Origin: Nitrosospira multiformis
GTDB taxonomy: Bacteria; Pseudomonadota; Gammaproteobacteria; Burkholderiales; Nitrosomonadaceae
Direction of reading: 5' to 3'
DNA length: 64,000 bases
Assembly: GCF_900111585.1 (NCBI RefSeq)
Contig: NZ_FOHI01000011.1
Location: 1-64,000 of the forward strand
A program made the position numbers and the translations under genes. Every line of letters begins with the position of its first letter. Within the stretch, counting starts at the first letter, position 1. The notes under the pieces were generated by a model. The model was not told the origin of the DNA. It ran no database searches and worked only from the letters and a program-made list of their open reading frames with translations. Shown here piece by piece: positions 549 through 12,428 of this stretch.

Positions 549-1034
549 ATGGCATCCGAAAACTTCAAGAGCAACCTGATCACGGGCTTGGCGGCGGGGG
601 TGGGGGCGACGCTGCTCGCGCCAGTGCTGCTTCCATTTCTTGCCAGCCTCGTCAGGCCCGCTACCAAGGCCGCTATCAAGGGTAGCGTCCTTCTGTATGA
701 GAAAGGACGTGAATCATTTGCCGAATTGAGCGAAACGGTGGATGACCTCGTGGCAGAGGTCAAGTCGGAGATGGAAGCTGGTGCGGTGGAAGATGAGGCG
801 GTGGGTGCCTCGGCAGCCCAGGCGGGGAGCGCGCAAGGGAGGACTGCTCCGCCACCGCCACAGCCTAGACCGGACTCTGGCCCCAGCCAAAGTTCGGCCA
901 CCCCGGCCGCAAGTCCGCCAGGCGAAGCCGATAAGGCACCGGAAGGTCTTCTCACGCAACCCGCCACGCAGGCGAATCAGGGTAGCCAGCGCCATGAAGG
1001 AGCGCAGGGTCGACCGCCAACCAAGGGGGAATGA
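549..1034 (+). CDS. DUF5132-like small membrane protein
   Basis: A 161-residue protein from the ATG at 549. This start is preferred over one nine codons upstream because it has an AAGGTG ribosome site just before it and gives the typical family start MASENFKSNLITGLAAG. Residues about 10-35 form a glycine/alanine-rich hydrophobic segment ending in a proline-containing turn (LLAPVLLPFLASLV). A charged helix with ESFAELSETVDDLVAEVKSE follows. The last 80 residues are low complexity, rich in Ala, Pro, Gln and Ser. The first half resembles DUF5132, a family of unknown function. The gene overlaps the next one by four bases, so the two are translationally coupled. The association with HMA_2-type proteins suggests a membrane anchor or assembly role, which is inference. 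Confidence 0.7.
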   Translation: MASENFKSNLITGLAAGVGATLLAPVLLPFLASLVRPATKAAIKGSVLLYEKGRESFAELSETVDDLVAEVKSEMEAGAVEDEAVGASAAQAGSAQGRTAPPPPQPRPDSGPSQSSATPAASPPGEADKAPEGLLTQPATQANQGSQRHEGAQGRPPTKGE

Positions 1035-1543
1035 TGGCGCCACTTGCGCGAGTGGTCCACTCTCTGCCGGGCAGGAAGCGGATAAAGATCGACGAAAGGC
1101 GCGGCGATACTGCGTACTTTGAGACGCTGAAAAAAGAACTGGGGGAGTGTCCCGGCGTTGGAGCGGTAATGACGAATTCGCGGACAGGAACGGCGCTCGT
1201 CATTCATACAGTGGAGGATCCGGTTCTGTGGGGCTATATCGCTGAACACGGGTTGCTTCAGCTCGGAAAGAATGAAACCTCAGCCCCTGCAGTTCGCCCT
1301 TCAATCGTTGGTGACATCAGGAACGTCGAACATAAGTCATATCCGAAATCCGGAAAGAAATCAGATATCCGGCGACTGATATTTCTGGGAATGATGGGTA
1401 TGGGTGTCGTGCAGGTAATCAGGGGCAATATAGCGATCTCGGCAATAGCGGCATTCTGGTACGCGTACTGCATTTTTCCGGGGACAAACGGCGATAACCC
1501 GGAACATTCCCTCATTGAAACCAAATTGTCCGAAGAATCTTAG
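1031..1543 (+). CDS. HMA_2-like domain protein with C-terminal membrane segment
   Basis: A 170-residue protein that starts inside the stop of the preceding gene. Residues 7-75 have the pattern of the heavy-metal-associated domain 2 family: a first strand with the motif RVVHSLPGRKRIKI, a helix (YFETLKKELGECPGV), then a strand pair around AVMTNSRTGTALVIH. There is no CxxC metal site, so it is not a classical HMA domain. Residues about 118-150 are hydrophobic (LIFLGMMGMGVVQV and ISAIAAFWYAYCIF) and probably form one or two membrane segments. The same fold signature occurs at 3914 and in the N terminus of the ATPase at 5505-8627, which ties the genes of this region together. The ligand is unknown. 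Confidence 0.72.
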   Translation: MMAPLARVVHSLPGRKRIKIDERRGDTAYFETLKKELGECPGVGAVMTNSRTGTALVIHTVEDPVLWGYIAEHGLLQLGKNETSAPAVRPSIVGDIRNVEHKSYPKSGKKSDIRRLIFLGMMGMGVVQVIRGNIAISAIAAFWYAYCIFPGTNGDNPEHSLIETKLSEES

Positions 1544-1735
1544 ATTTTGGAAATGAATGATGATTTCCGAAAATCTCGCAAAACAAAAATCTGTTGCAAA
1601 AATTCTGAGCGAGCCAAGGGGTTGCAAGATTCCAAACCAGGGAACTCTGCACTGAAGCGGTAGAAAGCAGCAAAATGAGAGAGACATTTTCATCGTCCTA
1701 GTACGGAAATCATAACTATACGAGGAGGAATCGAA

Positions 1736-2566
1736 ATGAATACCCCTAGATCAGGCAGGCACGCAGGGGGAAAACCGCCCCCTGAGGAAAAAAAGCGGAC
1801 CGATATAGAGACGCCCGAGGGAGCAAGGTATGCCCGTGGTGAAACACGCCCGGGAGATGAGGGATATGTGGGAACGACACGCCCTTATCGCTCGGATGCT
1901 GACCGTGCGATGGGAGAGGCCGGCCATACCGTAAAAACAGGCATTGCCAGCAGCTTGAGAGGCATCGATGAAATTGAATCTGATATCGTAAGCCTGGTGC
2001 GCAATACCGTATCCAATACGTTGAGAGCAACCGGGGCAGTCGGTACGGAAGCAGTCGATATAACAAGGGATGTCGTCAAGGGCGCTCTTGCCGCCACCGA
2101 AGACGTAGGGACCGGGTTAATGCTTTCCGCGAAAAGCGTTGCCAAGGGCGTGGTAATGGGCGTATCTGACGTCGGTGGCGACGCCATCACAGCAGCAACA
2201 GAAACCGTAAAAGCCGCAGTCCGGAGTGCTGCTGACGCGGGTGGTGACACATTGCTGGTTGCCAAGCGAACGGTGGATGGTGTGGCAGAGGGAACGAGGG
2301 AGACGGGGGGTAATGTCGTAGAGACGGTCAGGGCGACTGTAAACGCGGCAGCCGGAGGGGTAGGCGATATTGGCACCACCGCTGTCACGAGCGTGCGCGA
2401 CATCCTCATGAGTGTTGTGGAGGGTGTAAAGGACGTGGCAGGTGCCGCAATGCCAAAGTCATATCACATGGACGACCGTGTTCCTCCTGGAGAATATACT
2501 GCTCCCACAGAGCGTACCAGTCCGCCAGAATATGTCCCTCCTGCGGAGAGAAAAAAGCCGACATAA
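1736..2566 (+). CDS. Protein with seven 22-residue amphipathic repeats, function unknown
   Basis: A 276-residue protein with a strong ribosome site (GAGGAGG, 8 nt before ATG). Residues 1-65 are charged and probably disordered. Residues 80-233 are seven consecutive units of exactly 22 residues, most beginning V/A/T/I-G-x-x and containing a central T/S-V-K/R, for example VGTEAVDITRDVVKGALAATED. They lack proline and cysteine and are rich in Ala, Val, Gly, Thr and Asp. The tail has two copies of a PPxEYxxPxER-like motif. Repeats of 11 or 22 residues that fold as amphipathic helices are known from apolipoproteins and LEA-type proteins and often bind membrane surfaces. There is no signal peptide. 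A surface-coating or membrane-shaping role for the neighbouring ATPase/HMA_2 module is inference; I do not recognise the family. Confidence 0.75.
   Translation: MNTPRSGRHAGGKPPPEEKKRTDIETPEGARYARGETRPGDEGYVGTTRPYRSDADRAMGEAGHTVKTGIASSLRGIDEIESDIVSLVRNTVSNTLRATGAVGTEAVDITRDVVKGALAATEDVGTGLMLSAKSVAKGVVMGVSDVGGDAITAATETVKAAVRSAADAGGDTLLVAKRTVDGVAEGTRETGGNVVETVRATVNAAAGGVGDIGTTAVTSVRDILMSVVEGVKDVAGAAMPKSYHMDDRVPPGEYTAPTERTSPPEYVPPAERKKPT
1973..2434 (+). repeat. Seven tandem 66-bp coding repeats (22-residue units)
   Basis: Seven units of 22 codons lie head to tail without indels. They are conserved at the protein level (G at position 2, V at position 13, D/E at position 22) but diverged at the DNA level, so this is an old repeat rather than a recent expansion. 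Confidence 0.75.
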
Positions 2567-2911
2567 TCGTTATCAGGGCAGTGGCGCCTGGCCGCCGCAG
2601 CCCTGTTCTATTCCATTATCCTGCAGCAACGAACTCACATCACCCGATGGAGAGTCAGGATTGCAACACCTGGCATCCCGGCTCGTGCGAGAACCCTGGC
2701 ATCGTGGTACACGATGTGCAGTTGCTTGAGTAAATCCGCCAGCGCCATTTGCACAATACTCCACACATATAAAAGGCCCTGGTACGTGCGTGTGCATACT
2801 CAGACTAATCTAAAGTCGCGGGCAAGTTGCCTTGAGGAGCGCAAACTCTGAGAACTGGCTTTCTTTTGGTAAGAGTGGAGCCGTGGCGAGAGGGGTCAGA
2901 TATCGAGAGCC
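2567..2911. other. Intergenic region with a perfect palindrome
   Basis: No gene is supported here. At 2700-2716 lies a perfect inverted repeat CATCGTG-GTA-CACGATG, not followed by a T-run. It could be an operator, but no regulator for it is known in the window. Confidence 0.4.
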
Positions 2912-3391
2912 TCAGCCACGGCGAGCCGCTTCGATCACACCTATGTCGATCTTTCCCATTTCCATCATGGCTTCGAATGCACGCTTGGCCGCTGCTCGAT
3001 CAGGATCTGTGATCGCAGCCGTCAAGGCACGTGGCGTGATCTGCCATGACACTCCCCACTTGTCCTTGCACCAGCCGCATACGCTTTCCTGGCCGCCGTT
3101 TCCGACAATCGCGTTCCACAAGCGGTCTGTTTCAGCCTGATCGTCGGTCGCAACCTGGAACGAGAATGCTTCGTTGTGCTTGAACGCTGAGCCCCCGTTC
3201 AGGCCGAGACAAGGGATGCCCATTAACGTGAACTCGACCGTTAAGACATCGCCCTGCTTGCCCGCAGGAAAGTCGCCAGGCGCGCGATGGACTGCTTCCA
3301 CCGCGCTGTCCGGAAACGTCTCGGCGTAGAACCTCGCGGCATCCAGCGCGGTGCCGTCGTACCAGAGGCAAATCGTGTTCTTGCTGACCAT
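2912..3391 (-). CDS. PhnB-type VOC family protein
   Basis: A 159-residue single-domain member of the vicinal oxygen chelate superfamily, in the PhnB/3-demethylubiquinone-methyltransferase-like branch. Family features seen are the start MVSKNTICLWYDGTA, the motif ARFYAETFPDS, the middle strand VLTVEFTLMGIPCLGLNGG, and the block CGWCKDKWGVSWQITP near residue 120. The C-terminal helix has the AAAKRAFEAMMEMGKIDI pattern typical of the group. The start has a good ribosome site (AGGAGA, 6 nt upstream). Most members have no established substrate, so no reaction can be assigned. It lies on the opposite strand within the HMA_2 region and may be unrelated to it. Confidence 0.88.
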   Translation of the reverse strand: MVSKNTICLWYDGTALDAARFYAETFPDSAVEAVHRAPGDFPAGKQGDVLTVEFTLMGIPCLGLNGGSAFKHNEAFSFQVATDDQAETDRLWNAIVGNGGQESVCGWCKDKWGVSWQITPRALTAAITDPDRAAAKRAFEAMMEMGKIDIGVIEAARRG

Positions 3392-3913
3392 CTTGGTTCT
3401 CCTGAGTTGGAACAGATACGTACATTCGAGCTGCGCAGGTAAAATCGTACTAATGCTGCAGCTTGTGGACCAAAGAGTAACGAAGTAGTCCTTTAGTAGT
3501 CCTTAAATGACAAATGTCAAAGGGGCGACAAATGCATTCTCGCCGAAAGCCGCCATCCAGGCAGTTTCAAGGCAAATCAAATTTGAACTGCTACATTTCA
3601 TATTCATGATAGAGATTTTTTCCACTAGTGAGTGCAATACCTAATGAACTCTCGAGCAATCGAGAAATCGTTCCTTGGTACTCTCATACGATTCCATGTA
3701 ATTAAATGCTTTGTGTAGAGGTAAGGCTGATTATGGATAAACTTTAATCATGACTCTCAATCTTTGCTTCTATTCCGGTTTCTCTTGGCCCTCATCGAAT
3801 GTACCCAGCCAGCCTGTCAGTTCAGTACTCTCTCCGCCTCTCCGCTTCATCATGTTGTAACAAAGTCCCGCTTAAATACCTCCATGAGAAAGATATCTTA
3901 ATGGAGGTAAATC
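3392..3913. other. AT-rich intergenic region, no gene seen
   Basis: This 520-bp gap between divergent genes is AT-rich. It holds an 11-bp tandem direct repeat (AGTAGTCCTTT / AGTAGTCCTTA, 3484-3505) and a perfect inverted repeat TCTCGA-GCAA-TCGAGA at 3650-3665. No coding pattern or recognisable RNA was found. It presumably carries the promoters of both flanking genes. Confidence 0.5.
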
Positions 3914-4273
3914 ATGGCTCACTATATCCATCATGTGCCTGGCCGGCTGCGTGTCAATACGCCGCTCCTGAAAAAAAACGAGCCCCGCGCCCGGCAGTTG
4001 AAGTCGTACTTGGAAGGGGTAAACGGCATTCTTCAAATTGAAACCAGCATTGTCACCGGCAGTGTGGTGATCAGGTATGACAGATGTCTCGTAAACTCCA
4101 CGTTGATTCTCAATTCCCTGTATGATCTCGGATATATCCAGCATACCGACACTTTATCCGGACCCGCGCACGGAACTTCGGTAACGCCGAAGGTCGTGGA
4201 TATTTTCGTGCAGAAACTCATGGAAACTGCATTGGAACGGTCGGCTATGGCTCTGGTCGCAGCATTGATCTGA
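3914..4273 (+). CDS. Small HMA_2-family protein
   Basis: A 119-residue protein with a good GGAGGT ribosome site. The N-terminal half is a clear HMA_2-type domain: MAHYIHHVPGRLRVNTP forms the first strand with the H-H-V-P-G-R-L-R motif, a Lys/Arg-rich helix follows (RARQLKSYLEGVNGI), then IETSIVTGSVVIRYD and a second helix (LILNSLYDLGYI). The C-terminal part (VVDIFVQKLMETALERSAMALVAALI) is a hydrophobic helix that may insert in the membrane. No cysteines form a metal site. The gene is convergent with the metK-like/ATPase pair. The ligand is unknown; a cation or an interaction with the pump are both possible. Confidence 0.78.
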   Translation: MAHYIHHVPGRLRVNTPLLKKNEPRARQLKSYLEGVNGILQIETSIVTGSVVIRYDRCLVNSTLILNSLYDLGYIQHTDTLSGPAHGTSVTPKVVDIFVQKLMETALERSAMALVAALI

Positions 4274-4317
4274 GCTGGGAGTATCGTTCGAAATGCATTG
4301 ACCCACCCGATATCGAG

Positions 4318-5508
4318 CTAGCGCAGCAATGCAGCCTTGTCCGTGCTCTCCCACGGCAATCCGATATCCATCCGTCCCACCTGACCATAAACCGCAAGCT
4401 TGCGGTAAAACAAACCGCGAAATAGTTGAGGCTGATAGCGCAAATTAAAGGCGCGAATGATTCCGGCAGGCCGGAAATCAAAGTGGTCGAGAATACGCGC
4501 CGTTATTTCGGTATCAGGAATGCGCCCTGTACCAAAAGTATCCACCTGCACGCTTACCGGCCTCGATATTCCTATCGAATACGCCAGATGTACCTCGCAC
4601 GCCTGCGCAAGGCCAGCGGCGACCACATTCTTGGCGGCGTAGCGCGCTGCATAAGCCCCCACCCGATCAATACGAGAGGGGTCCTTACCGGAAAGCGCGG
4701 ACTCCGAATGCCGGGAATATTCGCCGTATGTATCCACTGCGTTCTTGCGGCCAGTCAACCCCGAGTGTAACGATGGTCCTCCGTCGGCGACCAGCCCTTC
4801 CGGATTGATGAAAATATGGGTGCGGGAGTCGGGCCGCAGCGTTTCCGTCGCGAAAACCGGCTCGATCACATGCGCATTGAGATCATCGTGCAGCGGGGCG
4901 AGGCCGCGCATGGCGGTCTTCTGCTGAGTGGCAACGATGGTGATGGAATGAATGCGATACGGTCTGCCTTCGCGATATTCCACCCCTACCTGCGTTTTTC
5001 CATCGGGCGCAAGATAGGGAATCTGCTTCTGAAAGCGTGTGGCCGTAAGCCGACGCGCCAGTTTATGCGAAAGCGAGATGGGTAGCGGCATAAAGGCCGG
5101 GCTCTGATTGCAGGCAAAGCCGAATACATTGGCCTGATTCTTGGCAGTAACGGATTCCAGCTCTTCCTCACTCATTTCCCTCTCATCTATGAACGGATAA
5201 GACGGTGCCGGCAGTTCAGTCAGGCTCGTCATGATCGTGCAATCTCTTGCATTGAAATCCGCTTGCTCGTAGCCAAGCTGGTGTATAACCCGGCGCGCGA
5301 CCTCGGGGATGTCGATAGAAGCCGACGAAGCGAAGCGTGCTGCGATAAAAAGTATTCCTGTGGATACTGCACACTCCGCTATCACCTTCGAAAAGGGATC
5401 TTGCTGCAGAAAGCGGTCGACCACCGCATCGCTCACTTGATCGCAAAGTTTATCCGGGTGCCCGTCAGTTACAGATTCGGAGGTGAACATGAAATTCTGT
5501 TTCATCAT
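4318..5508 (-). CDS. Divergent S-adenosylmethionine synthetase (MetK) paralogue
   Basis: A 396-residue protein of full MetK length. It keeps FTSESVTDGHPDK (H17, D19), a lysine at 171 (PDGKTQ), SGLTGRK, DTYG, SGKDPS, YAARYAAKN and the end PWESTDKAALLR. It differs from canonical enzymes at positions important in E. coli MetK: the aspartate of GAGDQG (D118) is N124 in AKNQAN, the aspartate of GGPMGD (D238) is H248 in GGPSLHSG, and K269 is R279. It begins inside the stop codon of the ATPase gene (ATGA overlap), so the pair is one coupled transcript. A second in-frame ATG follows directly. It may be a SAM synthetase with altered activity or a related nucleotide/cation enzyme. The genome should carry a canonical metK elsewhere, which cannot be seen here. 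Confidence 0.85.
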   Translation of the reverse strand: MMKQNFMFTSESVTDGHPDKLCDQVSDAVVDRFLQQDPFSKVIAECAVSTGILFIAARFASSASIDIPEVARRVIHQLGYEQADFNARDCTIMTSLTELPAPSYPFIDEREMSEEELESVTAKNQANVFGFACNQSPAFMPLPISLSHKLARRLTATRFQKQIPYLAPDGKTQVGVEYREGRPYRIHSITIVATQQKTAMRGLAPLHDDLNAHVIEPVFATETLRPDSRTHIFINPEGLVADGGPSLHSGLTGRKNAVDTYGEYSRHSESALSGKDPSRIDRVGAYAARYAAKNVVAAGLAQACEVHLAYSIGISRPVSVQVDTFGTGRIPDTEITARILDHFDFRPAGIIRAFNLRYQPQLFRGLFYRKLAVYGQVGRMDIGLPWESTDKAALLR

Positions 5509-8500
5509 CCATACTCCCGCGGCGCTGGTGGTAGAGATAGCAGCTCTTTACGTCGCTTGTCTTTGAAGGCAGCGTCTTTGGTTGCTTCATTCAGGAAAAA
5601 AGGCAGTACAGAACCTGCGCCTATCGCCGCCACATCAAGTGGGCCTATCGGGGTATTACCAAGCAGACTGCGGACGCCTGGCACCAGCACCGTAGCCCAT
5701 TGGAGCAAGGCCGTTCCACCGCTCGCCAGGTCGAGATAGCGATTGGAACGGAGCGTCTCGTGGCTGAATATGCCGATATGGTCCGAACGGCAACTATATG
5801 CGTGAAGCAGCTGCCCCATCGTCAGGGTCATGAAGGCAATCGTGCTGGCCTTCTGCCCTCCGCCATAACGTGCCATGGCATAGCCATAACCTCCCATTGA
5901 CCCCGCAGCCATTGTCAGCGACTCCAGACCGTAGCGCTTGAAGTCGGCCGGACCTACAATGGGTTCGCCCGGGTCTCGCGGGGGCTGCTGCAGAACATCC
6001 GGCTCGGGGGGCTCAACAGCAAGCGCCAGCCCGGGGAAGATATCGGTTACCAGGTTGATCCACAGCAAGTGGCTGGTGGTGAGCGGAGTGCCCAGCCCTG
6101 TCCCTACAGAGCCGAGCATCAGCATGATCTCGGACAGGTTGGTGGCGGTAAGGAAATGAATCGATTTGCGAATATTGTTGTAAATCGTCCTGCCTTCCGA
6201 GACGGCCACAATCATGGTACGGAGATTATCGTCTTCCAGTATAACGTCGGCCACGCTGCGCGCCACCTCCGTGCCGGTGCCGCCCATGGCGACGCCAATA
6301 TCCGCGGCCTTGAGGGCGGGGCCGTCATTGATGCCGTCGCCCGTCATCGCGGCGATTTTGCCGCCGCGCTGCAGTGCCTGCACGATTTGCAGCTTGTTGG
6401 CCGGGCTGACGCGGGAGAAGATATTGACCTTTTGAGCAAGCCCGGCCAGGACCTCTGCATCGAGTTGATCAAGCCGGGTAGAATCGAGAATGTCGAGTTC
6501 GCTGCCGCCGGATAACCCCAGTTCCTTCCCTATCGCATATGCGGTGCCGCTCTGATCACCGGTTATCATCACCGTGTCTATCCCGGCCTGATGAAACAAG
6601 GCGATAAGTTCCTTCATCCCCTGCCGCAGGGGATCTGCCATTCCCGTCATTCCCAGCCAGATGAGTTCATCCGCTGAAGATTGATCGGCTTGCTTCGGTT
6701 CGACGTAGGCAAATCCCAGCACACGCAGCGCTTCTGCGGCCATGCGGTCATTTTCCATGAGTATGACTGTTCGCTCGGCCTGCGTGAGGGGCAAACGTGC
6801 GCCGTCCTTCAACCACCACCCGCACATTTCCAGCACCTCGACTGGATTACCCTTGACAGCCACGAGCTTTCCATCCCCTTGGGCGCTATGGGTCGTGCTC
6901 ATGTAGCTCCGCGTTTCGGTCCGGTATTCCACTTGCTCTCTGGGATAGCGCTGGCGCAGCGCCTCAACTGAAACACCTGCCGCTAGCGCAAGGTGCATCA
7001 ATGCGCCTTCTGTTGCGGACCCCTTGAGCAGGTAGTTGCCTTTCTCACCGTTCAGTTCCACTTCGTTGCAAAGAACAGCCACATGGAGGAGCCGCAACAA
7101 TTCATCGCTCTGATAGGGATCGATTCTTACACCCGCATCGTAAAACACATCACTGTCCACTGTAATACGACGCCCTCCGCTATGCAGGGCCAGGACGGAC
7201 ATACGGTTGAGAGTGAGCGTTCCGGTTTTGTCCAGGCAGATTACCTGTACTGCGCCCAAGGTTTCCACTGCATCGAGGCGTCGCACCAGCACCTTGTGAC
7301 GGTTCATTGTCCGGATACCCAAGGCAAGAGTGGTCGTTGCAACGGTGGGCAGGCCTTCCGGGACTGCGGCCACCGCAAGGGAAATGGAGGTTTTCAACAT
7401 TTGCAGCCAAGCGTGACCACGGACCAATCCGATCAGAAACATTGCTCCGCAGATGCTCAGGGACAGCAACACCATCTGATTCCCCAGGATCGCAAGCTGG
7501 CGTTGCATGGGTGTCTCCGGAGGGCGGGTTTCACCTACAAGCGATTGAATCGTGCCGATCTCGGTATATCGTCCGGTCGAAACCACTACGGACAGGCCGC
7601 TGCCCCCCGTTACCACCGTACCCATGTATACCATGTTAAGCCGGTCCGCGAGAGAGACATCCGGCTGGTCCAGCGGGCTTACCCTCTTCGCCACCGGAAG
7701 GCTTTCTCCGGTAAGCATGGATTCATCCACCATCAGATTGCGCGACTCGAGCACCCTGCCATCAGCAGCTACCCGAGCCCCGGGTGTCAGCACCAGGATG
7801 TCGCCCGGCACCAGGGACTTGGCCGGCACCTCCAGAAGCCGTGCATCGCGGATGACCATTGCGTTCTGCTCGGCCACATGTCCGAGCGCATTAATCGTTC
7901 GCTCCGATTGAGATTCAGCAACATAGCCCGTACCCGCGTTGATCAAAACTACCCCGAGGATCACCGCCGCATCGACCAGTCCTCCCGTGGCTGCAGAAAG
8001 GACGGCGGATACACCGAGTAAAGCCACAGGCAGGCTTTTAAACTGCCCCAGAAAAATACTCAGCCCGGAACGGGGCGGCGTCTCCGGTAGGCTATTGACC
8101 CCGAAATGGCCAAGCTTCCGCTCCACGGAAGCTTGGCTAAGACCAAATTCCATGGAAGTTTCAAGCGCAGCCACCACGGTATCGCCAGGCAAGGCATGCC
8201 AATTTTTCCGATCCTGTGGAAGAACTGAATTGGGATCAGAAGAAATGACGGGAGAACCAGGACGTTGGGAGGAACGCAAAGAACCGCTATCATCTATCGG
8301 GTTCTCAGGAATGATTTCATGCCCGGCATCCAGCAGCAGTTGCTCCAACCAGGTCTTGATTTCTTCAAGGTCGCGTGCCGGATCAAAAACGATCAATACC
8401 CGACCCGTGAGAACGTTCGCGGAAGCATGTCTGATCGCATCATGCCTCGGCAGGGCAGACTCGAGCTTACGCCTGACGGATTCGGATCGATACAATCCCC

Positions 8501-8627
8501 GTATCTTAAGCCTTGCGCGGCCCTCCACAGCTGCATGAACGATGCGCACCGGTTCGGGAGGCTCGGCTTCAGTCGCACCTGTCCCGAAGAAAGAAGGACG
8601 TTGCATCTGGTCGAAAAGTAGAGACAT
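5505..8627 (-). CDS. P-type (Ca2+-ATPase-like) cation pump with N-terminal HMA_2-like domain
   Basis: A 1040-residue P-type ATPase. Residues 26-100 form an HMA_2-like domain (RIVHAAVEGRARLKI, then SANVLTGRVLIVFD). Pump motifs follow in order: actuator TGES at 306-309, PEGLP at 423-427, phosphorylation site DKTGT with D466, MITGD near 690, and GDGIND at 763-768. PEGLP instead of CPC/SPC, an N-x-x-E in TM5 (N830, E833) and NLVTD in TM6 (N858, D862) match P2-type Ca2+/Mn2+ pumps rather than P1B heavy-metal pumps. The C-terminal membrane domain has further segments to about residue 1010. The gene is coupled to the MetK paralogue. The transported ion is inferred to be a divalent cation. The start at 8627 has GAGG almost adjacent to ATG; an alternative ATG lies at 8606. 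Confidence 0.9.
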   Translation of the reverse strand: MSLLFDQMQRPSFFGTGATEAEPPEPVRIVHAAVEGRARLKIRGLYRSESVRRKLESALPRHDAIRHASANVLTGRVLIVFDPARDLEEIKTWLEQLLLDAGHEIIPENPIDDSGSLRSSQRPGSPVISSDPNSVLPQDRKNWHALPGDTVVAALETSMEFGLSQASVERKLGHFGVNSLPETPPRSGLSIFLGQFKSLPVALLGVSAVLSAATGGLVDAAVILGVVLINAGTGYVAESQSERTINALGHVAEQNAMVIRDARLLEVPAKSLVPGDILVLTPGARVAADGRVLESRNLMVDESMLTGESLPVAKRVSPLDQPDVSLADRLNMVYMGTVVTGGSGLSVVVSTGRYTEIGTIQSLVGETRPPETPMQRQLAILGNQMVLLSLSICGAMFLIGLVRGHAWLQMLKTSISLAVAAVPEGLPTVATTTLALGIRTMNRHKVLVRRLDAVETLGAVQVICLDKTGTLTLNRMSVLALHSGGRRITVDSDVFYDAGVRIDPYQSDELLRLLHVAVLCNEVELNGEKGNYLLKGSATEGALMHLALAAGVSVEALRQRYPREQVEYRTETRSYMSTTHSAQGDGKLVAVKGNPVEVLEMCGWWLKDGARLPLTQAERTVILMENDRMAAEALRVLGFAYVEPKQADQSSADELIWLGMTGMADPLRQGMKELIALFHQAGIDTVMITGDQSGTAYAIGKELGLSGGSELDILDSTRLDQLDAEVLAGLAQKVNIFSRVSPANKLQIVQALQRGGKIAAMTGDGINDGPALKAADIGVAMGGTGTEVARSVADVILEDDNLRTMIVAVSEGRTIYNNIRKSIHFLTATNLSEIMLMLGSVGTGLGTPLTTSHLLWINLVTDIFPGLALAVEPPEPDVLQQPPRDPGEPIVGPADFKRYGLESLTMAAGSMGGYGYAMARYGGGQKASTIAFMTLTMGQLLHAYSCRSDHIGIFSHETLRSNRYLDLASGGTALLQWATVLVPGVRSLLGNTPIGPLDVAAIGAGSVLPFFLNEATKDAAFKDKRRKELLSLPPAPREYG
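8109..8137. repeat. Perfect 12-bp inverted repeat inside the ATPase gene
   Basis: The arms at 8109-8120 and 8126-8137 are perfectly complementary with a five-base loop (CTCCA) and contain AAGCTTCC/GGAAGCTT. In the mRNA they would form a stable hairpin around codons 164-173. No T-run follows. Confidence 0.6.
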
Positions 8628-8932
8628 CCTCGCAGAAGTTATGTGGTTACATGACGTTTCACTGCTACGGAATATGCTAGGCGACGCTCAGGACAAACAT
8701 ATAATCACCGACCTTGCCACCAAGGCGATCAGTAGTATTTCCAAAAAACTACAACTTCCTCTCCCCGATATCTCGAACGATTGGAGACTTCTTCTTTTTA
8801 GGTTAAAACGACGTTCTCAGCAAGCTGTGCCGGCTCTTTGATGCACTTCGCCGCCAATCAGCGCACCTTGTATTCTGAAGCAGCGGGATTACTGGCACTG
8901 ATTTCTATTTCCGTTCCGCGATCTTCTATCCT
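8628..8932. other. Divergent intergenic region, no gene seen
   Basis: This gap lies between the divergent ATPase and amine oxidase genes. Open frames here are mostly antisense extensions of the ATPase gene and lack ribosome sites. It should hold the ATPase promoter. No clear -35/-10 pair could be assigned for it. Confidence 0.4.
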
Positions 8933-8978
8933 TATAATTCAGGATCAGGCACTGTGCCTGATGCCCTCAAGGCATCAG
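8933..8978 (+). promoter_or_regulatory. Putative promoter and overlapping hairpins in the amine oxidase leader
   Basis: TATAAT at 8933-8938 looks like a -10 box, with only a weak -35. Just downstream, 8944-8962 is a 19-bp perfect palindrome (ATCAGGCAC-T-GTGCCTGAT). A second hairpin, CTGATGCC-CTCAA-GGCATCAG at 8958-8978, shares bases 8958-8962 with the first. The two stems cannot form together in RNA. They lie about 70-100 nt before the chosen start codon, which fits a leader control element or a dyad operator. Inference. Confidence 0.4.
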
Positions 8979-9044
8979 ATTCGGATTCCAGCAGGTTTCG
9001 CAAGCTCCTTGAGGCATGAGGTCACTGAGGTAACGGGAGAAAAA

Positions 9045-11018
9045 ATGCCGGGCAACACATCTCATACGCAGCATACGCAGAAAGCGGAAATACATGATCT
9101 GGTAATTGTCGGCGGCGGTATTGCCGGGCTCTATTGCTGCCACGAGCTTATCAAGAAAGTCCGGAGCGGTTTGCTCGATATCAGGAGCATTCTCCTTCTG
9201 GAAGCTTCCGACCGGTTTGGCGGGCGCATCGAAACATGGTCCCTGCTGAGAAGCAGTGAGGAAAATGGAAAGAAGATCGGTTTTGAAGATACATGGGACC
9301 CGTGTAACTGGAACATCGATGATGGTTACCTTGCTCCCCCTGACCCGCAAACGGGTAAACAGTCTCCATTCAGAGGTCCGACAGAAAAATCATTCAGGAA
9401 TGTGGATGGCAACGATGTCGAAAAGCTGACCGATATCGAATACTTCCGCGCAGAATTTGGGCCTATGAGAATCGAGCCGCGGGACCAGATTTTATTGCAG
9501 GGATTGCTCGACGATCTTGGAATCAGGGAGCCTGATCCGGGGGAGGAAGAAAGCCTGGATGACCTCGTGCCGTTCTCTTCGTACACCTCCGAAGATCCGA
9601 TGGCGCCCCGATTCACCCTTCAGGAGGAGGAAGCTCAGCAGAAAACTCCTTTTGACCTGATGATACTCGCTCTCAGGCGCATCTTCGAACTCGTCCACGG
9701 TCCGAAATTCGACGGCCAGGCTTCGAATCCCTGGTGTACGGAGGCCGCCAATGAACAATGGAGAAAACTGCACAGCGCGCAGTTCTTTTATCGCCATTAC
9801 TGGAAGGGAGAGCTGCTTGAATGGATACAGTATCTTACCGATCCTGACTTCGTAACGATTCGGGAGCACGCGCGGTTCAGGGACCAGCCGTTATGGGACC
9901 TGGGATTCTGGAACGTTCTCAGCGATGTCTTGAGCCATTATGCGGTGGTCAAGATCAGGGATTGGGGAAGCTACTATCACTTTGTTCACGAAAATCTGAA
10001 TGCCGCCGAGTGGATTATCTTCTGGCTCAGGGCAATTCGAAGCACGGGTTCGCTTCGAGGCATACGCGGAGGGATGAGCAGGATAATCTGGAACCTCCTG
10101 GAAGTCTTGCGGAAGCACCAGAGCAGTCACGAATCTCCTCGTCTGAAAATCGCGAAAGGCGCAAGGGTGGTGAGCGTAGAAAGACGGGATAATGCGCTGG
10201 TTGCCCTTACCGTGCAGAAGCAGGATGAGGTCGAGCTTGTGTGCGCACGAAGAGTCATTTTTGCCCTGCCGAAGCGTCCGCTCGAGGAAATGTCATGGAA
10301 TGGGGAGCGTCCAAAAGGCAATCTTCACGAAGCATTCAATGCGGTCGCTTGCCTTCCGCTGCTGAAATGTTTTTTTGTCATCGAGAAGCCCTGGTGGGAA
10401 GACAACCGGTCTCTCAACCGCTATGCATCCGACATACCAACCCGCGAGCTGCTGTATGTGAAAAGCAGGGACCGGACAAAAGGGTTGATCATGATTTATA
10501 CCGACCGCCCGGCAATCACATTCTGGTCCGATTACCTCAGAAGCGAATCCAGCAATAATTCCAAAGGTCCCGAGCAACCGGAGGGGCCACAGGTCGACTA
10601 TCAGGATGCCGCCAGGATCTGGTTCCTGGAGAAAAAACCTTCCCCGACGTGTGGGTCGATTATCGAAATCAAGCCCGGATCGACCCGCCTATGGCAGCGT
10701 TTCGTGCAGTTTGCCAGGGATTATGAGCACCATGACTTTACCACAGGCCGCCTTCTCGCCTGTGGTATGCGCGACTGGGGAAAGGAGCCTTTCGGTGCCG
10801 CGGCGCACGGGTGGCGTCCGGGTGTAAAGTCCCGGGAGCATATCGAGTTTCTCGAGGCATTTTCTCTCGAACAAGAGGAGCAGGAAACCGGGCAAAACAA
10901 CCTGCACGTTTGCGGAGAAGCGTTTTCCGACTACCAGGGATTTATTGAAGGCTCGCTGCGATCAGCACAGCGCGTTCTGGCTGTGATAGAGGAACAGCAG
11001 AAGCCGGGAAAAAACTGA
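9045..11018 (+). CDS. Flavin-dependent amine oxidase (NAD(P)/FAD-binding)
   Basis: A 657-residue protein of the flavin amine oxidase family, which includes monoamine and L-amino-acid oxidases. Residues 18-50 carry the FAD dinucleotide site (DLVIVGGGIAGLYCC, then LLLEASDRFGGRIET). The C-terminal flavin-binding segment is VCGEAFSDYQGFIEGSLRSA near residue 625. The middle part is long, with a tryptophan-rich substrate domain. The ATG at 9045 is chosen because GGGAGA lies just upstream and the FAD motif then starts about 20 residues in, as usual; the frame is open further upstream to 8838. No signal peptide is visible. The substrate cannot be read from sequence; resemblance is closest to lysine/tryptophan-oxidase-like enzymes. 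It converges on the topoisomerase gene with a four-base gap. Confidence 0.85.
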   Translation: MPGNTSHTQHTQKAEIHDLVIVGGGIAGLYCCHELIKKVRSGLLDIRSILLLEASDRFGGRIETWSLLRSSEENGKKIGFEDTWDPCNWNIDDGYLAPPDPQTGKQSPFRGPTEKSFRNVDGNDVEKLTDIEYFRAEFGPMRIEPRDQILLQGLLDDLGIREPDPGEEESLDDLVPFSSYTSEDPMAPRFTLQEEEAQQKTPFDLMILALRRIFELVHGPKFDGQASNPWCTEAANEQWRKLHSAQFFYRHYWKGELLEWIQYLTDPDFVTIREHARFRDQPLWDLGFWNVLSDVLSHYAVVKIRDWGSYYHFVHENLNAAEWIIFWLRAIRSTGSLRGIRGGMSRIIWNLLEVLRKHQSSHESPRLKIAKGARVVSVERRDNALVALTVQKQDEVELVCARRVIFALPKRPLEEMSWNGERPKGNLHEAFNAVACLPLLKCFFVIEKPWWEDNRSLNRYASDIPTRELLYVKSRDRTKGLIMIYTDRPAITFWSDYLRSESSNNSKGPEQPEGPQVDYQDAARIWFLEKKPSPTCGSIIEIKPGSTRLWQRFVQFARDYEHHDFTTGRLLACGMRDWGKEPFGAAAHGWRPGVKSREHIEFLEAFSLEQEEQETGQNNLHVCGEAFSDYQGFIEGSLRSAQRVLAVIEEQQKPGKN

Positions 11019-11022
11019 GTTT

Positions 11023-12108
11023 TTATCCGGTCTTTTGTTTCCGCAGAAAAGACAGCACGGCAGACTCGAGCGAGTCATGCGCGGGATGCGCTGCTTCATC
11101 CAGTTCTTGCACGCAGCGATGAAGATCGCCTTTCTGCCAGGCAGAAAACACCGCCGGATTGATGTAGGATTTCCGGCAGACGGCAGGGGTATTGCGCAGA
11201 TCTTCCGCGACTTGCCGTATCGCCGCGATGATGCCGGCCTTGAGTGCGCGCTTGGTCGGAAATTCAGGCAACGGCGTATTGAGCATGATCTCGAACGCCC
11301 GCAAGGTTCCGCTCCACGTTCGGAAATCCTTCGCGGTAAACTCGGCTTCCATGACTTCGTGGAGGTAGGCGTTTACCTGCTCCGCTTCGACCGACCGCCG
11401 CTTGCCGCTCTCATCCAGATACTGGAAAAGATGCTGGCCCCTCAGCTCCCGGCAAGCCCGGATAATGCTGACGATCCTCCTGTCACTGATAGTGACTTCG
11501 TGCTCGACCCCGCTCTTGCCCCGGAATTTCAGTAATGCGCGCCTGGGGTTGATGAAGGCAAGATGCCGCTTGCGCAGGGTTGTAAGCCCGAAGCTATGGT
11601 TCTCGCGCGCGTAAGACAGGTTACCGATGCGCACCTGCGTCGTATCAAGCAGTCTCACTATTGCAGCAACAACCTTTTTTTGCGGCAAACCTCGTTTTTT
11701 CAGATCCAGGTGTACGCGCTCGCGCAGTTGAGGTAAAGCTTCGCCGAATTCCACCATCCGGTCAAATTTGATAGTGTCTCGCACCGCGCGCCAATCGGAA
11801 TGGTAGCGGTACTGCTTGCGGCTGCGCGCATCCAGTCCCGTGGCCTGCAAGTGACCCAGGGGATGGGGACAAATCCAGACGTCGGTATAAGCGGGAGGAA
11901 TGGCGAGCCGGGCAATGCGCTCAAGCTCATCCTTGTCACTCAAGGGCTTTTCATCCGGACCGACATAAAGAAATCCCTCGCCGGAGACTAACCTTCTGAT
12001 CCCGGGCTCATCGCCGGAGACATAGAGCAATCCCGCGGCCGCCGCTTGCGCCGCCAGAATTTCCATTGCCTGCGGTCGCAACTCCTCCTTATCCGGAAAG
12101 AATGACAT
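11023..12108 (-). CDS. DNA topoisomerase IB (poxvirus type)
   Basis: A 361-residue bacterial type IB topoisomerase, which relaxes supercoils by nicking one strand through a 3'-phosphotyrosine. The N-terminal domain includes GEGFLYVGPDEKPL and the pattern IPPAYTDVWICPHPLGHLQATG that contacts DNA. The catalytic domain carries RIGNLSYARENHSFGLTTL, the lysine in the TLRKRH segment and the active tyrosine near residue 315 in CRKSYINPAVF. The ATG at 12108 is chosen because AGGAGT lies 7 nt upstream; the frame extends to 12228 without a better start. Such enzymes are accessory in bacteria and scattered among proteobacteria. Confidence 0.92.
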   Translation of the reverse strand: MSFFPDKEELRPQAMEILAAQAAAAGLLYVSGDEPGIRRLVSGEGFLYVGPDEKPLSDKDELERIARLAIPPAYTDVWICPHPLGHLQATGLDARSRKQYRYHSDWRAVRDTIKFDRMVEFGEALPQLRERVHLDLKKRGLPQKKVVAAIVRLLDTTQVRIGNLSYARENHSFGLTTLRKRHLAFINPRRALLKFRGKSGVEHEVTISDRRIVSIIRACRELRGQHLFQYLDESGKRRSVEAEQVNAYLHEVMEAEFTAKDFRTWSGTLRAFEIMLNTPLPEFPTKRALKAGIIAAIRQVAEDLRNTPAVCRKSYINPAVFSAWQKGDLHRCVQELDEAAHPAHDSLESAVLSFLRKQKTG

Positions 12109-12428
12109 ATGGTTACTCCTATCGCAGGCTGGTTGTAACAAAGTCAGTATGTCAAGCAGTTTGGAAAACGAAAAACAGGGAATTCGAAGGCCAGGCGCCA
12201 GGATACTGCCAAGCAGCAGACCGGACACGCTTCTATCGACAGCAATGATAGCCCTCCGGTTCCATCCTTTTGGGATGGGTAAAAATCAGGAAGAAAACTT
12301 TATCTGTCCCGACTGGTTTTCTTCATTTATGGAGATACGTAAGCGAGGCATCACCCCGGCGATTGCTCAAAGCGTTCGCACATTCTTTATTTGGTAGGTT
12401 TGGAATTTCCACAAGGAGGACGATGGGG
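12109..12428. other. Intergenic region, no gene seen
   Basis: This 320-bp gap upstream of the topoisomerase gene contains a short hairpin (CCATCC-TTTTG-GGATGG near 12262-12278) without a T-run. No coding pattern or RNA gene is evident. Confidence 0.4.

Follow-up and report, generated by a model that had tools for sequence, protein, structure and literature searches.

Do the genes between positions 549 and 8627 of a contig from Nitrosospira multiformis (NCBI RefSeq assembly GCF_900111585.1, contig NZ_FOHI01000011.1, positions 1 to 64,000 of the forward strand; this entire stretch of 64,000 nucleotides is referred to as the window) form a conserved unit, and what could such a unit do? The interval contains six cluster genes and one intruder. 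Plus-strand genes for a DUF5132 protein (549-1034), HMA2a (1031-1543), the repeat protein REP22 (1736-2566) and HMA2b (3914-4273) face minus-strand genes for a MetK-derived protein, MetK2 (4318-5508), and a P2A-type P-type ATPase (5505-8627), with overlaps of 4 bases between DUF5132 and HMA2a (1031-1034) and between MetK2 and the pump (5505-5508). All genes named in a preliminary description of the locus were found where it had placed them. A conserved module is very likely real, as documented below by its recurrence in other genomes.

Co-occurrence was determined in samples of the family (120 genomes) and the phylum (398 genomes), in which MetK2 was called present at E<=1e-115. In the family, MetK2 was found in 16 genomes and DUF5132 in the identical 16, a match with a chance probability of 3e-20 if genomes are independent, their relatedness weakening this figure. 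HMA_2 proteins were found in the same 16 genomes and in G002, whose pump is a frame-broken remnant. The 15 other clusters of the family (L036-L050) all match DUF5132, HMA2a, HMA2b (spread across two frames in L050), MetK2 and the pump, so that the association of these five genes, which the preliminary description had proposed to check by gene neighbourhoods, does recur in other genomes. In a class sample of 274 genomes, MetK2-type proteins showed 53-68% identity, compared with <=46% for ordinary MetK, among the matches listed. Outside the family, a pump with an HMA_2 domain adjoins MetK2 in 9/9 loci of this sample, as it does in one genome elsewhere in the phylum (G135, L115). The phylum sample yielded MetK2 in only two genomes, that of the window and G135, and the gene is widespread but uncommon there.

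When one genome from each species was scanned with the C-terminal segment of MetK2, at least 559 related stretches were found, MetK2 and ordinary MetK taken together; the best 80 of these, the closest ones, were retained as scan loci. They included 39 cyanobacteria, 16 Nitrospirota-type, 14 deltaproteobacterial/Desulfo-type, 4 Nitrosospira/Nitrosovibrio and 5 other proteobacterial loci and 1 Brocadia. The closest among the matches listed was N. multiformis Nl18 (98% over the MetK2 segment), the nearest relatives of the window genome being possibly excluded. Neighbourhoods were counted in those 72 scan loci that extend 3.3 kb or more upstream. A pump lay no more than 1.3 kb upstream of MetK2, and in the same orientation, in 68 of the 72, with an HMA_2 match in 66 of these and an overlap with MetK2 in 24. 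When flanks of equal length (1.5 kb) were compared, a P-type pump was present at 10/10 distinct MetK2 loci versus 0/21 ordinary metK loci. Many Nitrospirota and deltaproteobacterial loci carry DUF5132, HMA2a, REP22, pump and MetK2 codirectionally, HMA2b being encoded on the other strand in several of these loci. Under the thresholds applied, matches to DUF5132 were obtained in 41/72 scan loci and to a free-standing HMA_2 protein in 34/72. MetK2 and pump distances were correlated (r 0.92, 92 pairs), which partly stems from shared species history. The claim that a MetK paralogue is coupled to the pump is thus upheld by neighbourhoods.

These genes are tentatively interpreted, with a confidence only slightly short of even, as one cation-handling membrane module in which a P2A pump would act together with HMA_2 adaptors, proteins of the membrane surface and a MetK derivative recruited to bind Mg-ATP or triphosphate. 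The pump would transport a divalent cation across the bacterial membrane, Mg2+ being favoured and Ca2+ or Mn2+ being alternatives. The HMA_2 domains of the pump N-terminus, HMA2a and HMA2b, which have a conserved His-Arg-Arg patch and no CxxC, would probably dock partners on one another or on phosphate-rich ligands rather than act as copper-like metal carriers. DUF5132, HMA2a and, if present, REP22 may be membrane-embedded or membrane-attached and have an organising role there. MetK2 has probably stopped making S-adenosylmethionine (SAM) from methionine, although the Mg2+/K+/triphosphate half of the MetK active site is largely retained; the protein likely binds or hydrolyses Mg-ATP or triphosphate near the pump, as a pump regulator or as an enzyme acting on another acceptor.

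The pump type was assigned from profiles, domains and cation ligands. The best NCBIfam profile was the PMR1-type TIGR01522 (600.2 bits, under its cut-off of 798.3), the nearest solved chains were SPCA1 and LMCA1, and the protein has Cation_ATPase_N and _C domains and PEGLP in membrane segment M4. Ligand residues were counted in 92 cluster pumps (87 distinct), with positions given in SERCA numbering. E309 was present in 91/92, N768, E771, N796 and D800 in 92/92, and T or S at 799 in 92/92. Domain set, P2A profiles and conserved ligands agree with the earlier view of a Ca2+-like, non-P1B pump, and support its assignment to the Ca2+-pump-like P2A type. The HMA_2-like domain at its N-terminus (residues 30-83, 8379-8540 on the minus strand) scored 28.4 bits (E 1.8e-6) against PF19991, slightly below the cut-off of 30, which the pumps of several relatives exceed. 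As an additional observation, a short extra copy of this N-terminal part precedes the full pump gene in one family cluster (L036:7472-7951).

The assignment of three proteins to HMA_2, as put forward in the preliminary description, stood for HMA2a (46.4 bits) and HMA2b (49.0 bits), both above the same cut-off, and fell just short for the pump N-terminus, so that two of the three pass in profile searches. In the whole genome, exactly three HMA_2 places were found at E<=0.1, all inside this cluster. The shared motif H-x(2-4)-GR-x-R/K, reported earlier to occur without CxxC, was confirmed in all three sequences, as HSLPGRKR (HMA2a residue 10), HHVPGRLR (HMA2b residue 6) and HAAVEGRAR (pump residue 31), and no CxxC was found within the first 130 residues of any of them. 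The exact motif occurs in 31/44 HMA2a and 33/37 HMA2b relatives, against a background of 31/1615 open reading frames of >=100 amino acids matching no cluster profile (antisense frames included), and a looser form, H-x(1-5)-GR-x-[RKHY], lies within the first 150 residues of 86/93 pumps (92 cluster pumps and one outgroup). H10, R15 and R17 of HMA2a are invariant in 38 aligned proteins. An AlphaFold 2 (AF2) model of HMA2a appears ferredoxin-like over residues 1-80, with block values of the predicted local distance difference test (pLDDT) of 84-94; the domain is followed by two C-terminal helices, which perhaps form a membrane hairpin. When the HMA2a profile was compared with the PDB, a designed repeat protein ranked first (2.5e-5, no stretch passing alone), followed by copper ATPase, chaperone and MerP domains at 0.005-0.8, and a Foldseek search with HMA2a gave 0/1541 matches at E<=0.001. 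The DUF5132 protein, described earlier as a coupled membrane protein, reached 36.9 bits against PF17195 (cut-off 25), its gene overlapping that of HMA2a by 4 bases; by reading of its sequence, an N-terminal hydrophobic stretch is followed by a charged helix-like part and a Pro/Ala/Gln-rich tail.

REP22 comprises eight 22-residue amphipathic repeats (residues ~61-245, bases 1916-2470). Identity at lag 22 was 0.258, whereas the best lag of shuffled sequences had a 95th percentile of 0.175. The hydrophobic moment peaked at 98.0 degrees with a value of 1.24 (99th percentile in shuffles, 0.64); both measures establish the repeat character that had been proposed. This angle corresponds to a helix of 11 residues in 3 turns, and such 11/3 amphipathic periodicity is typical of lipid-surface helices such as those of apolipoproteins. 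The best lag was 22 in six of seven REP22 proteins (window, L123, L125, L141, L168 and L196) and 33 in the other (L176). No direct repeats were found at the DNA level in the REP22 gene, and the comparison of its profile with the PDB gave a single match at chance level (E 0.055). Relatives occur in Nitrospirota, deltaproteobacterial groups and Brocadia. REP22 was matched in 10/10 clusters of genus g1, 0/5 of genus g3 and, at the thresholds applied, 26/72 scan loci; because it is missing from the g3 clusters and from most scan loci, REP22 is an accessory of the module. Its role as the coat of a compartment, suggested in the preliminary description, is hypothetical, as is the compartment itself.

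Of the competing explanations, a ferrosome-like storage compartment, in which pump, HMA_2 and amphipathic proteins would form a cation-filled vesicle with the P2A pump replacing FezB, survives best, and is nevertheless unlikely. The ferrosome pump FezB is P1B-type, and fez pumps carry an arginine motif. A similar layout is seen at L111:7145-11426 and L112:5205-9365, presumably fez clusters, where P-type pumps of 687-688 amino acids with an HMA_2 N-terminus, without Cation_ATPase_N/C and P1B-like by inference, lie beside HMA_2 and small membrane-type proteins; L113 and L114 are alike by profile only. The match of the REP22 periodicity to lipid-surface helices also favours such a compartment, whereas the absence of REP22 from many loci and a pump that is not P1B argue against it. 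FezC is identified as a DUF4405-like cytochrome and FezB as the ferrosome pump in PMC10979944, and no DUF4405 match was obtained at E<=1 in nine window proteins (549-12228), the range searched for this family. Membership in the ferrosome family fails on two counts, the absence of a FezC match in this range and the pump, with its Cation_ATPase_N/_C domains, PEGLP in M4 and best matches to P2A profiles, and the contrast with fez loci drawn in the preliminary description is retained. By the tests made, the module is not a ferrosome family member and may work like one.

MetK2, the MetK-derived member of the proposed module, aligns with MetK across nearly its full length; in the tree it forms a single, separate clade on a long stem (FastTree support 0.93). 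Residues were tabulated for 102 MetK2 sequences (97 distinct), numbered by E. coli MetK and including 76/80 scan loci (L137, L155, L166 and L190 being too short); the MetK2 and pump sets hold five genomes twice (L041/L120, L044/L121, L046/L122, L047/L126 and L109/L133). Ordinary MetK controls (n=21) consisted of 19/20 control loci (L085, in which the motif was not found, was omitted), E. coli and the copy encoded elsewhere in the window genome. In MetK, E55, Q98, D238 and K269 belong to the methionine/ligand side. H14, D16, E42, D163, K245 and K265 are kept in 102/102 and K17, R244 and D271 in 101/102 MetK2, and the Mg2+/K+/triphosphate residues of methionine adenosyltransferase (MAT) among them (H14, D16, E42, K245, K265 and D271) are thus present in 101-102/102 each. 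In contrast, E55 is replaced in 102/102 (R in 100, H in 2), D238 is H in 102/102, K269 is replaced in 102/102 (R in 101, otherwise H), Q98 is lost in 100/102 and F230 in 44/102 (still F in 58), and the access loop is variable. All 21 ordinary MetK proteins retain all these residues, including E55, Q98, D238 and K269, together with K165 and D118. In the E. coli MAT, according to figure 5 of PMC8727953, one chain contributes E55, Q98 and I102, and the other H14, D163, R229, F230 and D238, to the interaction with SAM. Since methionine-side residues are replaced and triphosphate/Mg2+ residues mostly kept, MetK2 probably no longer uses methionine as a substrate, with its triphosphate/Mg2+ half likely still in use.

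A working second SAM synthetase, adapted to ion conditions created by the pump, is an improbable alternative: the window copy passes the NCBI metK equivalog TIGR01034 (359.7 bits, cut-off 309.4) and the residues listed above as kept would suit this function, yet E55, Q98 and D238, which contact SAM, are among those replaced, as is K269. Moreover, the window genome has an ordinary MetK (614.9 bits versus 360.2 for MetK2), and two or three MetK matches were obtained in every one of the nine MetK2-bearing genomes of the class sample. The replaced methionine-side residues of the 102 sequences likewise speak against an ordinary second MetK, a candidate that was set aside. Less probable still is an adenosyl- or triphosphate-using enzyme acting on a new acceptor without an amino group, with E55R and D238H removing acids and K269R keeping a positive charge, since the near invariance of R55, H238 and R269 favours it, whereas the loss of F230 in many sequences, the variable access loop and the lack of a recurrent acceptor-making enzyme among the neighbour clusters viewed (by eye and non-systematically, after the many clusters of antisense frames had been removed by eye) oppose it.

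The preferred cargo of the proposed module was derived from neighbouring channels. Distinct loci (n=100) were obtained from 15 family, 9 class and 80 scan loci and L115, minus 5 duplicates. A Mg2+ channel lies in or beside the cluster in 23/100 of them (MgtE 14, CorA 9); a CorA (PF01544, 162.1 bits) and an MgtE with a CBS domain (PF01769, 73.7 bits) were identified by their profiles. These channels, like the replaced residues of MetK2, go beyond what the preliminary description had noticed. In all nine CorA loci, CorA starts from 4 bases inside to 14 bases past MetK2. MgtE was found in family loci of genus g1 (L043, L046, L047 and L048) and genus g3 (L036, L037, L038 and L040), in L102, in the cyanobacterial loci L148, L149, L156 and L170 and in the gammaproteobacterial locus L189; weak matches in L157 and L179 were left uncounted. 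With 1 MgtE and 2 CorA per 3.2 Mb in the window genome, the chance expectation for 20 kb stretches is ~2/100, and the binomial probability of the excess is 1e-18, a value overstated since lineages share ancestry. Mg2+ is favoured as the cargo because MgtE or CorA recur in or near the cluster, while Ca2+ or Mn2+ are kept as alternatives because the ligand set resembles that of Ca2+ pumps.

Several observations weigh against this interpretation and its components. Four cyanobacterial loci (L186, L191, L193 and L194) have MetK2 without a pump directly upstream, and in 23/72 scan loci DUF5132, free-standing HMA_2 and REP22 are all unseen at the thresholds used. The position equivalent to E908, a ligand of SERCA site I, is Q in 89/92 pumps and E in 3/92. 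The cluster of the window itself has neither MgtE nor CorA, 77/100 loci are without a visible Mg2+ channel (many of them ending at contig ends), and the channel-bearing loci are clustered by lineage and non-independent. The passing of the metK cut-off by the window copy of MetK2 belongs here as well. K165 is kept in 86/102 MetK2 and replaced in 16, the retained half being not intact everywhere, and D118 remains D in 17/102. The AF2 model of REP22 is helical with low confidence (mean pLDDT 53.8). Separately, L186, L191 and L194 contain a DUF5132 match and a reading frame for a different P-type ATPase downstream of MetK2.

The sharpest claim arising from the residue changes is that MetK2 is probably not an ordinary methionine adenosyltransferase. 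A more specific version, in which MetK2 is a neofunctionalised SAM-synthetase fold serving as a dedicated Mg-ATP/triphosphate-using pump partner within a system that stores or buffers Mg2+ (or Ca2+), organises the membrane and is common to cyanobacteria, nitrifiers, Nitrospirota and sulfate-reducer relatives, is possible and rather doubtful. If true, a pump with a MetK-derived partner would represent a new way of coupling cation transport to nucleotide/triphosphate chemistry, and MetK2 a pump partner of previously unknown origin. The analysis provides genomic context for two poorly characterised families, DUF5132 and HMA_2, and reveals a clade of MetK-related proteins in which methionine-side residues are lacking. 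If other MetK2 copies also pass the metK cut-off, many genomes may hold a misnamed second methionine adenosyltransferase. The cation-handling system looks undescribed: within the open-licence literature searched, no description of the module was found, nor any paper with DUF5132 or 'HMA2 domain-containing protein', nor any joining P-type ATPase, methionine adenosyltransferase and Nitrosospira.

Further genes were recorded in and around the cluster. A 3-dmu-9_3-mt (VOC-like) gene, identified by Pfam between REP22 and HMA2b (2912-3391, minus strand), had no tblastn match at 1e-3 in 17 related loci; for this reason it was left out of the module and taken as a probable local insertion. Promoter and terminator scans were at chance level (4 vs 5.0 and 8 vs 8.6), and transcription units were therefore not delimited by them. 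An amine-oxidase-like gene and one for a type IB topoisomerase adjoin the cluster (8838-12228); the same pair is found in L041, L042 and L049, and the amine oxidase without the topoisomerase lies beside the cluster in L044 and L045. With duplicates counted, a DUF3562-like small protein occurs in 16/114 loci (e.g. L179:10494-10808 and L043:10954-11292) and a DUF445 protein in 15/114 (e.g. L127:1252-2520), both possible further members. Genome G000 has a second DUF5132 (G000:C9:110939-111052; L052:6015-7188) with a shortened REP22 relative and, nearby, a DUF3562-like reading frame (L052:5676-5912); this 14 kb stretch gave no match to the pump or to MetK2. Outside the cluster, a further DUF5132 was likewise found in G038, G046, G048 and G058. 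A defence system was considered and rejected, six proteins having no PADLOC match at 0.001.

Compared with known systems, the module resembles the ferrosome (fez) in its clustering of a P-type pump bearing an HMA_2-type N-terminus with small HMA_2 and small membrane-type proteins, as in L111 and L112, and differs from it in the P2A type of the pump, the MetK2 partner and the lack of a detected DUF4405-type FezC. With the P2A Ca2+/Mn2+ pumps (PMR1/SPCA, LMCA1 and SERCA), the module pump shares the domain set and the cation ligands of M4, M5 and M6; unlike them, it has an HMA_2 N-terminal extension and mostly Q at E908, misses the equivalog cut-off and is tied to MetK2. MgtE/CorA Mg2+ channel systems are linked to the module by the channels in or next to the cluster, whereas its pump falls outside the MgtA type (330.1 bits against TIGR01524, whose cut-off is 610.75). 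MetK2, finally, is a full-length homologue of MetK with most of its Mg2+/K+/triphosphate residues, set apart by a clade of its own, replaced methionine-side residues and its linkage to a pump.

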